64,000 bases of DNA from Cronobacter universalis NCTC 9529. Lineage in GTDB: Bacteria > Pseudomonadota > Gammaproteobacteria > Enterobacterales > Enterobacteriaceae. The translations under genes were made by a program, and so were the position numbers. Shown piece after piece: positions 15,944-20,279 of this stretch; the first letter of the stretch is position 1, and each line of letters opens with the position of its first letter. A model generated the notes under the pieces. It was not told the origin of the DNA. It made no database searches and was given only the letters and a program-made list of their open reading frames with translations. The DNA is taken from positions 1,612,001-1,676,000 of the forward strand of contig NZ_CP012257.1 in assembly GCF_001277175.1 (NCBI RefSeq), read 5' to 3'.

Positions 15944-16732
15944 ATGGGAAGACAGAAAGCAGTGATCAAAGCTCGTCGTGAAGCCAGACGCGTTCTCAGA
16001 CGAGATTCACGCAGCCACCGGCAGCGTGAAGAGGAATCGGTCACCACGCTTGTGCAAATGAGTGGCGTTGAAGCAATCGGCATGGCGCGGGACAGCCGCG
16101 ATAACGCGCCGATTGTCGCTCGTACCGACGCTCAGGCGCATTATCTTGAGGCTATTGAGAGCAAACAGCTGATATTCGCCACCGGCGAAGCCGGATGCGG
16201 CAAAACGTTTATCAGCGCGGCGAAAGCCGCTGAGGCCCTGATTCATAAGGATGTCGACAGGATAATTGTCACCCGCCCGGTGCTGCAGGCCGATGAAGAT
16301 CTCGGCTTCCTGCCCGGCGATATCTCTGAGAAGTTCGCTCCGTATTTCCGCCCGGTATATGACGTGCTGGTGCGCCGCCTCGGCGCCTCCTTCATGCAAT
16401 ATTGCCTGCGGCCGGAAATCGGCAAAGTTGAGATTGCGCCGTTCGCCTACATGCGCGGACGTACCTTTGAAAACGCCGTCGTGATTCTGGACGAGGCCCA
16501 GAACGTGACAGCCGCGCAGATGAAAATGTTTTTAACCCGCCTCGGGGAGAACGTGACCGTGATCGTCAACGGCGACATCACCCAGTGCGATTTGCCGGCG
16601 GGCGTACAGTCCGGCCTGAGCGATGCGCTGGCGCGTTTTGAGGAAGATGAGATGATTGGCATCGTGCGGTTCGGCAAAGCCGATTGCGTGCGTTCCGCGC
16701 TGTGCCAGCGGACGCTTAACGCCTACGATTAA
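15944..16732 (+). CDS. phoH: PhoH, phosphate-starvation-inducible ATPase
   Basis: A cytoplasmic P-loop ATPase of 262 residues from the chosen start. Walker A is GEAGCGKT at residues 81-88 and Walker B is VVILDEAQ ending at residue 186. The intervening DLGFLPGDISEKFAPYFRPVYD and the later FLTRLGENVTVIVNGDITQCDLP are hallmarks of PhoH. Its cellular role is not well defined; RNA-related and phosphate-starvation roles have been proposed. The start MGRQKAVIKARREA is chosen because it follows AAGGTG and begins the conserved region; a start at 15665 would give about 355 residues. It is monocistronic, ending at a hairpin. Confidence 0.93.
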   Translation: MGRQKAVIKARREARRVLRRDSRSHRQREEESVTTLVQMSGVEAIGMARDSRDNAPIVARTDAQAHYLEAIESKQLIFATGEAGCGKTFISAAKAAEALIHKDVDRIIVTRPVLQADEDLGFLPGDISEKFAPYFRPVYDVLVRRLGASFMQYCLRPEIGKVEIAPFAYMRGRTFENAVVILDEAQNVTAAQMKMFLTRLGENVTVIVNGDITQCDLPAGVQSGLSDALARFEEDEMIGIVRFGKADCVRSALCQRTLNAYD

Positions 16733-16803: not shown

Positions 16804-16881
16804 GGTGGGTGCGCTGCGCTTACTCACCCTAGGGGATATGTCTGCAGGTGTTGTAGGGCAGGTAAGCGGAGCGCGCCTGCC
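16804..16881. repeat. Pair of REP-like palindromes (copy A)
   Basis: Two imperfect palindromes lie side by side: 16804-16829 (GGTGGGTGCGCTGCGCTTAC then CACC) and 16853-16881 (GTAGGGCAGGTAAGCG, then GCGCCTGCC). The motif GGTAAGCG paired with GCGCACC is a very common interspersed repeat of enterobacteria. A closely similar pair stands at the equivalent place beside the second tRNA-Ser (19806-19873). Confidence 0.65.
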
Positions 16882-16904
16882 GTTTTCCTGGCGCGATATA
16901 AAAG

Positions 16905-16933
16905 CAAAAAAGCCCGTACTTACGTACAGGCTC
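16905..16933 (-). terminator. Distal terminator of the tRNA-Ser copy 1 transcript
   Basis: On the minus strand AGCCTGTAC-GTAA-GTACGGGCT is followed by TTTTTTGC. It is the second of two near-identical terminators after the tRNA, so transcripts passing the first could end here. Confidence 0.75.
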
Positions 16934-17094
16934 TTTCTTTGAATATGGCGGTGAGGGAGGGATTGATTCGGCCCGCTGGGCCTCACCCTTCGGGCAGTCA
17001 GCTCGCGTGGCTCGCAGACTGTCCCCCTGGCTGCGCCAGTGGTCGAACCCTGGTCGAGGCTTCTCATCCCTCCCGGGCTGGCGCGATATAAAAG

Positions 17095-17123
17095 CAAAAA
17101 AGCCCGTACTTGCGTACAGGCTC
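17095..17123 (-). terminator. Proximal terminator of tRNA-Ser copy 1
   Basis: On the minus strand AGCCTGTAC-GCAA-GTACGGGCT followed by TTTTTT, beginning about 14 bases after the tRNA CCA end. Confidence 0.82.
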
Positions 17124-17135
17124 TTTCTTTAAATA

Positions 17136-17223
17136 TGGCGGTGAGGGAGGGATTCGAACCCTCGATACGTTGCCGTATACACACTTTCCAGGCGTGCTCC
17201 TTCAGCCACTCGGACACCTCACC
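17136..17223 (-). tRNA. tRNA-Ser(GGA), copy 1
   Basis: An 88-nt class II tRNA with encoded CCA. On the minus strand it starts GGTGAGGTGTCCGAGTGG, has an anticodon loop CTGGAAAG (anticodon GGA, reading UCC and UCU), a long variable arm, the T-loop GGTTCGAATCC, and ends CCTCACCGCCA. It is identical to copy 2 at 20129-20216. Its own promoter lies just upstream. E. coli has two such genes, serW and serX; which of them this represents cannot be decided here. Confidence 0.97.
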
Positions 17224-17264
17224 ATATTGTCTTGCTGCCTCGCGTAGCGGGGCAACGGGGCGCT

Positions 17265-17293
17265 ACTATAGGGATCTGCATGAAAACGGTCAA
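17265..17293 (-). promoter_or_regulatory. Promoter of tRNA-Ser copy 1
   Basis: TTGACC, a 17-base spacer and TATAGT on the minus strand form a near-consensus sigma-70 promoter. It is followed by a GC-rich discriminator (AGCGCCCC), as expected for a stringently controlled stable-RNA gene. The mature tRNA begins about 35 bases downstream. Confidence 0.85.
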
Positions 17294-17469
17294 GCACATT
17301 TTTTTCTTTCTTTATCGTTCGGTTAAGGGTTAAACGAAATGACGTTTTCTCCCGCAAAACCCGCTATCAGCGCCTGTCGCGCCGACAGATAACCCCGCTG
17401 TCGCTTCGCTTATCGCATTTTCTGTACCAGGCTTAAACCACAACTATGAGACAGAGAATGTGGAGCACT

Positions 17470-19794
17470 ATGAAAGAGCGAAATCGTACTATCGGCATCG
17501 CGCCTTATGGCGGATCGGCGGGCGGTTGGGGCGCACTCAAGGCCGTTGCTGACGCTATCCGCGGCCAGATGTCGGTGAAGCAGGACGTGATTGCCCTGTT
17601 CAAAGTCAATCAGCCGCAGGGGTTTGACTGCCCCGGCTGCGCGTGGCCCGACCCGCAGCACGCCTCGTCGTTTGAGTTTTGCGAAAACGGCGCGAAAGCC
17701 GTCTCCTGGGAGGCCACCAGCAAACGCACCACGGCGGAATTCTTCGCGGCGCATACCGTCAGCGAACTGTGGGAGCGCAATGCGTTCGAGCTGGAAGGCG
17801 AGGGGCGGCTGACGCACCCGATGAAATATGATCCCGCGAGCGATACGTATCAGCCCATCGAATGGGAAACGGCTTTTCAGGAGATTGGCGAGCGCCTGCG
17901 CAGCTACGACAATCCTGACAGCGTCGAGTTTTACACCTCGGGGCGCGCCTCCAATGAAGCGGCATTCCTCTGGCAGCTGTTCGCCCGTGAATATGGCACC
18001 AACAACTTCCCGGACTGCTCCAACATGTGCCACGAGCCTACCAGCGTCGGGTTGCCGGAATCTATCGGCGTCGGCAAAGGCACGGTGGAGCTTGAAGATT
18101 TCGACCACTGCGACCTGGTGCTGTGCATCGGCCATAATCCCGGCACCAACCACCCGCGTATGCTCGGCACGCTGCGCGAAGTCTCGAAGCGCGGCGCGAC
18201 TATCGTCGCCATCAACCCGCTGCGCGAGCGCGGGCTGGAGCGCTTTACCTCGCCGCAAAGCCCGATTGAGATGCTGTCGTTAAGCTCTACGGAACTTGCC
18301 TCGACCTACTATAAGGTGCGGGTCGGCGGCGATGCCGCGATGCTTAAAGGCGTGATGAAAATATTGCTTTCTATGCATGACGAGGCGCTGGCGAACGGTG
18401 AGCCGGGCATCCTCGACGAGGCGTTTATTCGCGAGCATACCGAAGGGTTTAAGGCGCTGAAGGCGGATCTTGACGCGACCGAGTGGGATCACATCCTGAA
18501 AGTTTCCGGTATGGAGCGCAAAGAGATCCAGAATGTCGCGCGTCTGTATGCGAAGGCGGAGCGAACCATTATCTGTTACGGCATGGGGATAACCCAGCAC
18601 CAGTACGGCACGCAGAATGTACAGCAGATCGCCAATCTGCTGCTGCTGCGCGGCAATATCGGCAAAAAAGGCGCAGGCATCTGCCCGCTGCGTGGGCATT
18701 CCAACGTGCAGGGCGACCGCACGGTGGGCATCACGGAAATCCCTCCGCAGTCGCTGCTTGACGGTATTGAGCGCGTTTTTGGTTTTAAACCGCCGCAGAA
18801 GCACGGTCATGGCGCCGTCGCCGCGATTCAGGCGATGCGCGACGGCAAAGCCAAAGCGCTGCTGTGCCTGGGCGGCAATCTGGCGGAGGCGATTTCCGAC
18901 CCGCAGGTCACATTCCCGGCGATGCGCAATCTCGATTTAGTCGTGCATATGGCGACCAAACTCAACCGCTCGCATCTTCTGCTCGGCAAGCACAACTATA
19001 TTCTGCCGGTGCTGGGCCGCACGGAAACGGACGTGCAGGCGTCGGGCGAACAGAGTATTACCGTTGAGGATTCGATGTCGATGGTGCATGCCTCGCGCGG
19101 CATGTTGCAACCGGCGTCGCCGCATCTGCGCTCAGAGCCCGCTATCGTGGCGGGGCTTGCCAAAGCGACGCTGCCGGATACGGTGGTGAACTGGGACAAA
19201 ATGATCGGCGACTACAGCTTTATCCGCGACGCCATCGAGGCGGTGTTCCCGGCGTTCGCTAACTTCAATGAGCGCGTGAAGCAGCCAGGCGGTTTTCGTC
19301 TGCGTAACGCGGCCTCGGAGCGCGTCTGGAATACGCCATCCGGCAAGGCGCAGTTTAAGGTGATGCAGGGGATCAATGAGGATCCGCGGTCGCTCAAATG
19401 TCACGATCTGGTGCTGACCACGCTTCGCAGTCATGACCAGTACAACACGACGCTGTATGGCCTGAACGACCGCTACCGCGGCGTGACCGGGCGGCGCGAC
19501 GTGTTGTTTATCAATCCGGATGAGGCAGAAAAACGCGAGCTGCGCGTGGGCGATCAGGTGAATGTGACCGCGCTTGATGCCGACGGCAAGCCGACCTCCC
19601 GGCGGCTCAATAACCTGACCGTGGTGGTAATTGATATGGCGCCTGGCTCGGTGGGTGCCTATTACCCCGAGGCCAACGTGTTGGTGCCGCTGGACAGCCA
19701 CGATACGCAAAGCGGGATCCCGGCTTATAAAAGTATCCCGATCGCGATGGAACGTGTCGCCGAGCCGGTGACGACAGCGGGCGCACGGCGGTAG
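17470..19794 (+). CDS. YdeP/FdhF-type molybdopterin oxidoreductase
   Basis: A 774-residue cytoplasmic protein of the formate-dehydrogenase-like molybdopterin family, closest in my recollection to E. coli YdeP (about 759 residues, linked to acid resistance). [12 protein letters not shown] near the N-terminus has Cys54 and Cys57, too few for a complete 4Fe-4S ligand set of the FdhF type. The Mo ligand region reads [13 protein letters not shown], so Cys187 occupies the selenocysteine position of FdhF, followed by the conserved His. MGT-binding motifs ([25 protein letters not shown]) and the C-terminal dinucleotide-binding domain ([22 protein letters not shown]) are intact. The start is chosen at MKERNR because GGAG precedes it. 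It is a single gene bracketed by the two tRNA-Ser repeat loci. Substrate unknown. Confidence 0.88.
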
Positions 19795-19805: not shown

Positions 19806-19873
19806 GGTGGGTGCGCTGGCGCTTACCCACCCTACAGACGGTTTTGTAGGGCAGGTAAGCGAAGCGCACCTGT
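19806..19873. repeat. Pair of REP-like palindromes (copy B)
   Basis: GGTGGGTGCGCTGGCGCTTA then CCCACC (from 19806) and GTAGGGCAGGTAAGCGAAGC then GCACCTG (from 19846) are imperfect palindromes homologous to the pair at 16804-16881. They begin about 12 bases after the stop codon of the oxidoreductase gene and may shield its mRNA 3' end. Confidence 0.65.
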
Positions 19874-19898
19874 CGTTTTCCTGGCGCGATATAAAAGC

Positions 19899-19926
19899 AA
19901 AAAAGCCCGTACTTGCGTACAGGCTC
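19899..19926 (-). terminator. Distal terminator of the tRNA-Ser copy 2 transcript
   Basis: Minus-strand hairpin AGCCTGTAC-GCAA-GTACGGGCT followed by a T run; the second terminator of this locus. Confidence 0.75.
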
Positions 19927-20088
19927 TTTCTTTGAATATGGCGGTGAGGGAGGGATTGATTCGGCCCGCTGGGCCTCACCCTTCGGGCAGTCAGCTCGCG
20001 TGGCTCGCAGACTGTCCCCCTGGCTGCGCCAGTGGTCGAATCCTGGTCGAGGCTTCTCATCCCTCCCGGGCTGGCGCGATATAAAAGC

Positions 20089-20116
20089 AAAAAAGCCCGT
20101 ACTTGCGTACAGGCTC
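20089..20116 (-). terminator. Proximal terminator of tRNA-Ser copy 2
   Basis: Minus-strand hairpin identical to that of copy 1, with a T run, beginning about 13 bases after the CCA end. Confidence 0.82.
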
Positions 20117-20128
20117 TTTCTTTGAATA

Positions 20129-20216
20129 TGGCGGTGAGGGAGGGATTCGAACCCTCGATACGTTGCCGTATACACACTTTCCAGGCGTGCTCCTTCAGCC
20201 ACTCGGACACCTCACC
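20129..20216 (-). tRNA. serX: tRNA-Ser(GGA), copy 2
   Basis: An 88-nt tRNA-Ser with anticodon GGA and encoded CCA, identical in sequence to copy 1. The name serX is suggested because E. coli serX lies just before ghrA, as this copy does apart from the inserted fimbrial cluster. The upstream flank differs completely from copy 1 beyond about ten bases, so homology between the loci starts at the tRNA 5' end and runs downstream. Confidence 0.96.
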
Positions 20217-20250
20217 ATATTGTCTTCCCGACGCTGTCGGGACGGGCGCT

Positions 20251-20279
20251 AATGTAGGGGAAAGGCCCATAGCCGTCAA
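20251..20279 (-). promoter_or_regulatory. Promoter of tRNA-Ser copy 2
   Basis: TTGACG, 17 bases and TACATT on the minus strand, with a GC-rich discriminator (AGCGCCCG). It is weaker than the copy 1 promoter and unrelated in its spacer, so the two genes are expressed independently. Confidence 0.78.

Follow-up and report, generated by a model that had tools for sequence, protein, structure and literature searches.

Both tRNA-Ser(GGA) genes in a 64,000-nt stretch of the Cronobacter universalis NCTC 9529 genome (the window, to which the coordinates below refer) are followed by a repeat unit which, judged by its sequence, is a tRNA-linked repeat (Rfam RtT) at a duplicated serX-type tRNA-Ser gene. 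The find is an ordinary member of a known enterobacterial repeat family, and the equivalent tRNA gene of Escherichia coli K-12 has the repeat too. The two tRNA genes, located on the minus strand at 17136..17223 (ARAGORN; Rfam tRNA, 54.1 bits) and 20129..20216 (ARAGORN), are identical to each other at 88 of 88 nt, and a 190-nt unit lies 3′ of each of them in the same orientation; between the two loci the units differ at 2 of 190 positions. The last 19 nt of the unit, AATCCCTCCCTCACCGCCA, equal the 3′-terminal 19 nt of tRNA-Ser at all 19 positions at both loci, CCA included, an exact 19-mer in 190 nt being expected by chance with a probability of about 7e-10. These copies occupy 16946..16964 and 19939..19957 (minus strand), which bears out the first-pass annotation, where they were said to end at 16946 and 19939, to lie 190 bases downstream of the original and to be accompanied by a second terminator. 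The near-identity of the two loci claimed there also stands; its extent does not, since the homology covers 387 nt at 98.2% (16847–17233 versus 19840–20226) instead of about 420 bases. As direct repeats of tRNA-Ser plus unit, these 387-nt stretches flank an open reading frame for an FdhF/YdeP-family oxidoreductase (17446..19794, plus strand; NCBIfam TIGR01701, 1020 bits), which is context only; recombination between them could delete or amplify that gene. Nearby, an Rfam Ysr251 match (16534–16727, minus strand, 169.7 bits) lies antisense to the 3′ end of phoH and may have its source in conserved phoH coding sequence.

In 1991, Bosl and Kersten are said to have described the RtT RNA of the tyrT operon. 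The Rfam model of this RNA (RF00391) matches both window units over its whole length, positions 1–130, with 61.3 bits for the unit of the first tRNA (16946..17088, minus strand) and 57.6 bits for that of the second (19939..20081, minus strand). Both scores exceed the gathering score of 45 bits, and the likeness to the rtT plan of tyrT to which the first-pass annotation had pointed is therefore more than an analogy. The closing stem is the same, and the Rfam consensus structure already has such a stem onto a copied tRNA end. The differences are that the end and the stem of the window units are those of tRNA-Ser, not tRNA-Tyr, and that their central region is longer (33 versus 22 positions in the stretch that the alignment leaves out). 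According to the parts of PMC8144298 used here, the class is named tRNA-linked repeats (TLRs) and comprises 22 copies at ten loci of E. coli K-12; they are found in operons for tRNA or rRNA, with between one and five at a locus, and each has 18–19 bp at its 3′ end identical to the end of the upstream tRNA or rRNA. The original sources named there are Egan and Landy 1978 and Rudd 1999. The window units agree with this description in end identity (19/19), in position and orientation within a tRNA operon and in number, one per locus.

The E. coli K-12 record holds four annotated RtT units at 181-bp spacing behind the orthologous serX-type tRNA-Ser between ghrA and ycdU, and the 19-nt end of the tRNA-Ser recurs there four times; the window differs in that it has two serX-type loci, separated by about 3 kb, and a single 190-nt unit at each. 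The serine version had been presented as a novelty, and absence of the unit next to serine tRNA genes in all other genomes had been named as a ground for abandoning the reading. Since the K-12 tRNA-Ser has four RtT units and the class already has its name, the version is not new, and the unit is plainly present beside a serine tRNA gene elsewhere. Another E. coli strain has one annotated RtT unit, and in 2937 of 5426 E. coli genomes the tRNA-plus-unit query is matched at one place over 80% of its length or more. Northern signals are reported for RtT RNAs of Actinobacillus pleuropneumoniae, which that account places upstream of tRNA genes (PMC4986893). Passages of other papers note that BIME elements resemble RtT (PMC2965389) and that RtT has a tandem GA motif (PMC7657543).

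Each unit is bracketed by two terminator-like hairpins, all recognized on the minus strand by a consensus scan. T1 lies directly 3′ of the first tRNA at 17096..17127 and after the second tRNA at 20089..20120, and T2 follows the copy at 16906..16937 and at 19899..19930. All four have a 14-pair stem and T1 and T2 are nearly identical; the scan found seven such sites in the region versus 3.9 expected. At locus 1 the stretches after the tRNA and after the copy agree at 56 of their first 58 nt, and tRNA end plus terminator recur as a direct repeat of about 77 bp; compared across loci, with the tRNA side taken from one and the copy side from the other, it is 98.7% identical. Promoter-like sites, TTGACC-17-TATAGT at 17265..17293 and TTGACG-17-TACATT at 20251..20279 (both minus strand), are located upstream of the first and second tRNA, respectively; they are consensus matches only, three having been found in the region versus 1.6 expected by chance.

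The arrangement is probably best explained as a TLR/RtT unit at duplicated serX-type tRNA-Ser genes that is made by read-through as an RNA with a tRNA-like processed end, its arrays being shaped by recombination. A fraction of the tRNA transcripts would read past T1 into the unit and stop at T2; RNase E would cut just beyond the tRNA CCA and likewise beyond the copied end, which exonucleases would then trim. The products would be the mature tRNA and an RNA of about 170–190 nt ending in CCA, whose production would parallel that of the tRNA. Such a read-through RNA with its tRNA-like end is plausible by analogy, because read-through is the reported origin of the RNAs from the sister repeats behind the E. 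coli rRNA operons rrnA, B and D (PMC8144298, in the parts used). In the same parts, the 173-nt form of the rRNA-linked repeat has its 3′ end 3 nt beyond the repeat and cutting by RNase E is suggested. The small RNAs rrA, rrB and rrF described there resemble the window units in that the 3′ end of the upstream RNA is repeated between T1 and T2, and differ in being linked to 5S rRNA instead of tRNA-Ser. They bind Hfq and CsrA, whereas the other 19 TLRs were scored as unlikely CsrA binders. A further RNA derived from a tRNA transcript, the trailer sRNA 3′ETS-leuZ, base-pairs to the sRNAs RyhB and RybB, and its description in those passages does not mention a copied tRNA end; a claim that the tyrT repeat acts in recovery from starvation is noted there as later retracted. 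Against the read-through model, most transcripts may be halted at T1.

The distribution of the family was followed with the Rfam RtT model at an E-value of 0.001 or better. Matches were obtained in 113 of 198 genomes of the same family and in 39 of 197 genomes of the same order (9 within the family and 30 outside it), both searches having been run with stricter filters by which weak matches are lost; among 14 control genomes, a match was found in E. coli only. In the relatives, units stand behind Tyr, Ser, Lys, Pro, Arg and Glu tRNAs. Two loci from other families of the order (L267 and L269) have a repeat with the 3′ end of tRNA-Glu(TTC) after tRNA-Glu, in arrays that also hold tRNA-Ala. The C. 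universalis genome itself has five matches, namely the two tRNA-Ser units, two at tandem tRNA-Lys genes, with which they overlap, and one a short way upstream of two tRNA-Tyr genes. In the tRNA-Lys cluster (locus L003, 1501–1669 and 1897–2062), shorter units lie between tandem tRNA-Lys genes; the core and the tRNA-Lys end are retained in them, the T-arm-like hairpin is not. Comparable short forms also occur behind tRNA-Arg(ACG) in L250, L273, L278 and L286. The tRNA-Tyr locus (L001, about 1489–1650; C1:2436862-2437002), the only one of the five matches near tRNA-Tyr, has a degenerate tRNA-Tyr-like sequence ahead of two intact tRNA-Tyr genes; it passes from the T-arm GAAGGTTCGA directly into the RtT core and ends AATAATCCTTCC without CCA. 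This form looks like the outcome of a deletion between the T-arm of the tRNA and the T-arm-like copy of the unit.

Within the genus, all seven genomes searched have tRNA-Ser(GGA) plus unit at two places with about 3 kb separating them, and in all six congeners a sequence 95–98% identical to the YdeP-like protein lies in the interval (tblastn). The numbers of exact-ended units per pair of loci are 1+1 in C. universalis and 1+5, 1+2, 3+2 and 2+3 in four congeners, and the other two have copies with 1 or 5 mismatches; with degenerate copies counted, array length runs from 1 to 5 units across the six congeners. The variable array length and the like ends fit recombination between direct repeats: because tRNA end and terminator together form the repeat of about 77 bp, arrays can grow or shrink while their ends stay alike, and recombination at these repeats would both expand or shrink the arrays and keep the ends alike. 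Seven tRNA-Ser(GGA) loci from other genera or families (L200–L206) show no copy in the downstream stretch fetched, and the unit is therefore dispensable; an eighth locus (L199), cut by a contig end, was left out of the unit-less loci. The same observations lend themselves to another account, in which the unit has no function as RNA and is DNA amplified by recombination of tRNA end plus terminator, tolerated or kept only as a back-up terminator insulating the tRNA gene. The terminator-like hairpin that each unit owns, the 77-bp direct repeat, the exact 181-bp spacing in K-12, the varying copy number among congeners and the seven loci without a copy all agree with it, as does the modest effect on CsrA-regulated traits of deleting the rRNA-linked repeats, reported in the parts of PMC8144298 used. 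It is nevertheless judged unlikely, though worth serious weight, and the point that speaks against it comes from the strand that faces the copied end.

In relatives the end of the unit is, as far as the compared sequences go, usually that of the tRNA it follows. A search with the core motif CCCGNAGGG in loci L001–L076 and L187–L291 gave 251 distinct matches behind a tRNA in 181 fetched loci, 25 matches with no upstream tRNA in the stretch being set aside. This search is independent of the ends, so that a match to the own end is not built in; all loci had been picked from RtT or serX matches and do not make an unbiased census. Compared over tRNA positions 61–73, the copied end matched its own tRNA more closely than that of every other amino acid represented in 227 of the 251 (9 ties, 15 worse), the share being 95/104 for Tyr, 46/53 for Ser, 44/46 for Lys, 29/31 for Pro, 10/14 for Arg and 3/3 for Glu. 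In a second list of 256 distinct units, identified by the end of the own tRNA with at most 5 of 19 mismatches, the own match averaged 12.0–12.8 of 13 and that to other tRNAs 3.0–9.3, a result partly built in because the units were found by that end. Four variants of the Ser tRNA, TCCCTCCC, TCCCCGCC, TCCCTTCC and TCCCCCCC, have a corresponding copy and opposing strand; in L257, L263, L290 and L291 the fit is poorer. The isotype counts do not include the units called after tRNA-Ala(GGC) and tRNA-Arg(TCG), which are apparently spurious.

In each unit a stem closes off a core. The 3′ strand of this stem is the copy of the tRNA end, comprising the last T-loop bases, the 3′ strands of T-stem and acceptor and CCA, and its 5′ strand is complementary to that copy. 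In the first window unit the 5′ strand is GGGAGGGAT (17066..17074, minus strand), complementary to tRNA positions about 60–68 and recognized by sequence, fold, inverted repeat and covariation in relatives. Folding of the window units is only modestly better than that of shuffled sequences (z of −2.44 for the unit of 130 nt, −1.65 when 18 nt are added and −1.70 at the second locus). A set of 72 units was formed from those of the 256 with a TGAGAA-like loop, taking one per locus and isotype and removing near-duplicates; 50 of them (16 Tyr and 34 others, the 22 omitted being all Tyr) were aligned. Over closing stem and inner hairpin, with shuffles that ignore relatedness among the units, 85.4% of the cells were paired versus 74.2% when shuffled, 77 cells had changed on both sides versus 25.1, and the covariation score was 0.373 versus 0.187, each value reached by 0 of 500 shuffles. 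The number of pair types was reached by 3 of 500; in the count of pairs that had any change on both sides, these 50 units did not stand out, 146 of 500 shuffles being as high. Moving the partner by 1–3 columns lowered pairing to 44–70%.

Among the 72 units, the opposing strand makes 7.00 of 8 Watson–Crick pairs with its own end versus 5.03 with the ends of other amino acids' units, and 1000 swaps of ends, which likewise take no account of relatedness, gave at most 5.36. Within single isotypes and with two registers, the observed pairing was reached by 0 of 2000 shuffles for Ser and 4 of 2000 for Tyr; the signal was weak for Lys (227 of 2000) and absent for Pro (1987 of 2000). For Ser the register matters: 209 of 1000 shuffles reached the observed value with a single register, and the 0 of 2000 was obtained with two registers allowed in own and shuffled ends alike. 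When covariation was scored on a fixed 14-position target, the own tRNA stood strictly above the best other in 90/107 Tyr, 35/53 Ser(GGA), 12/47 Lys, 8/20 Pro(CGG) and 0/11 Arg(ACG) units; under the revised scoring, it stood strictly above all others in 77/107 Tyr, 20/57 Ser, 26/47 Lys, 4/25 Pro, 7/11 Arg and 3/3 Glu units. In Tyr, Ser, Lys, Arg and Glu units, the opposing strand has on average a better fit to the own tRNA than to others; in Pro units it does no better on the own tRNA (6.40 of 9, versus up to 6.84 for others). In these comparisons the opposing strand of the stem thus tends to follow the tRNA type, Pro units excepted. This covariation is not stated in the passages of the TLR literature used here, a scope outside which the original descriptions (Rudd 1999; Egan and Landy 1978) fall. 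It bears on the account in which the unit is amplified DNA with no role as RNA, since amplification homogenizes the copied end and not the opposing strand in the core; yet the latter matches its own end, in a comparison that does not model relatedness and from which Pro units deviate. Recombination of ends leaves this match unexplained, which suggests selection on pairing in the RNA.

Two readings would give the matched strand a role towards the tRNA. In one, tRNA-linked repeats are re-tailored RNAs, in which the copied end and the opposing strand, partly also an inner hairpin that repeats the 5′ strand of the T-stem and TTCGA, change with the tRNA; each unit would be a structured partner of its own tRNA, a T-arm with the core inserted in its loop, which would act on tRNA maturation or on tRNA fragments and would not be a generic spacer or terminator. 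This idea is speculative and its probability is put low. The other, in which the unit acts on its own tRNA through pairing of its antisense strand with the 3′ portion of the cognate pre-tRNA or with a tRNA fragment, the copied end competing for this pairing, is regarded as very improbable. The average fit in five isotypes agrees with it; the Pro units do not fit. Where copy and tRNA differ (28 units), the strand fits the tRNA better in 17, the copy better in 7 and both equally in 4; however, as read from the alignment rows, an indel displaces the copy in 11 of these 17, which a fixed register therefore misreads. In the folded tRNA, moreover, the segment concerned is hidden, and the antisense strand also closes the repeat's own stem, so that the match is explained without any action on the tRNA.

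The 3′ ends of tRNA genes are common att sites. The copied end might accordingly be the remnant of an att site or a decoy for elements that integrate at such ends, a possibility that appears scarcely credible here. Seven of 40 sampled E. coli records do lose homology at serX 4–7 nt past the 3′ end of the tRNA. In one of these seven (L293, 4302–4389) the repeats expected after the tRNA-Ser are replaced by other genes (DUF4942, CbtA/YeeU family), and in another E. coli record (L294, 1462–3019) a gene for a tyrosine recombinase adjoins the RtT array next to ycdU; the tRNA seems to be separated from its repeats by islands at serX. However, the copied end (query position 570) is a breakpoint in none of the 40 records sampled from 5400, and with the breakpoints at the tRNA and not at the copy, an integration decoy was rejected as the main explanation. 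In one sampled E. coli record the match begins exactly with the 19-nt end; this reflects array structure and no junction, because the place is the end of another RtT copy. In the window, no integrase gene lies between tRNA and copy, the gap of 171 nt being too short for one, and the pattern is not that of an att-site duplication; the conserved core and the matched stem would also be left unexplained.

The preferred reading remains that of a tRNA-linked repeat transcribed by read-through at duplicated serX-type genes. The window locus in itself adds little, since it shows in a related genus the serX repeat already known from E. coli. The comparison across relatives could be of use for the question of what TLRs do, because it separates the share of recombination, seen in like ends and variable copy number, from what would need selection on RNA pairing, namely an opposing strand that tends to follow the tRNA type.
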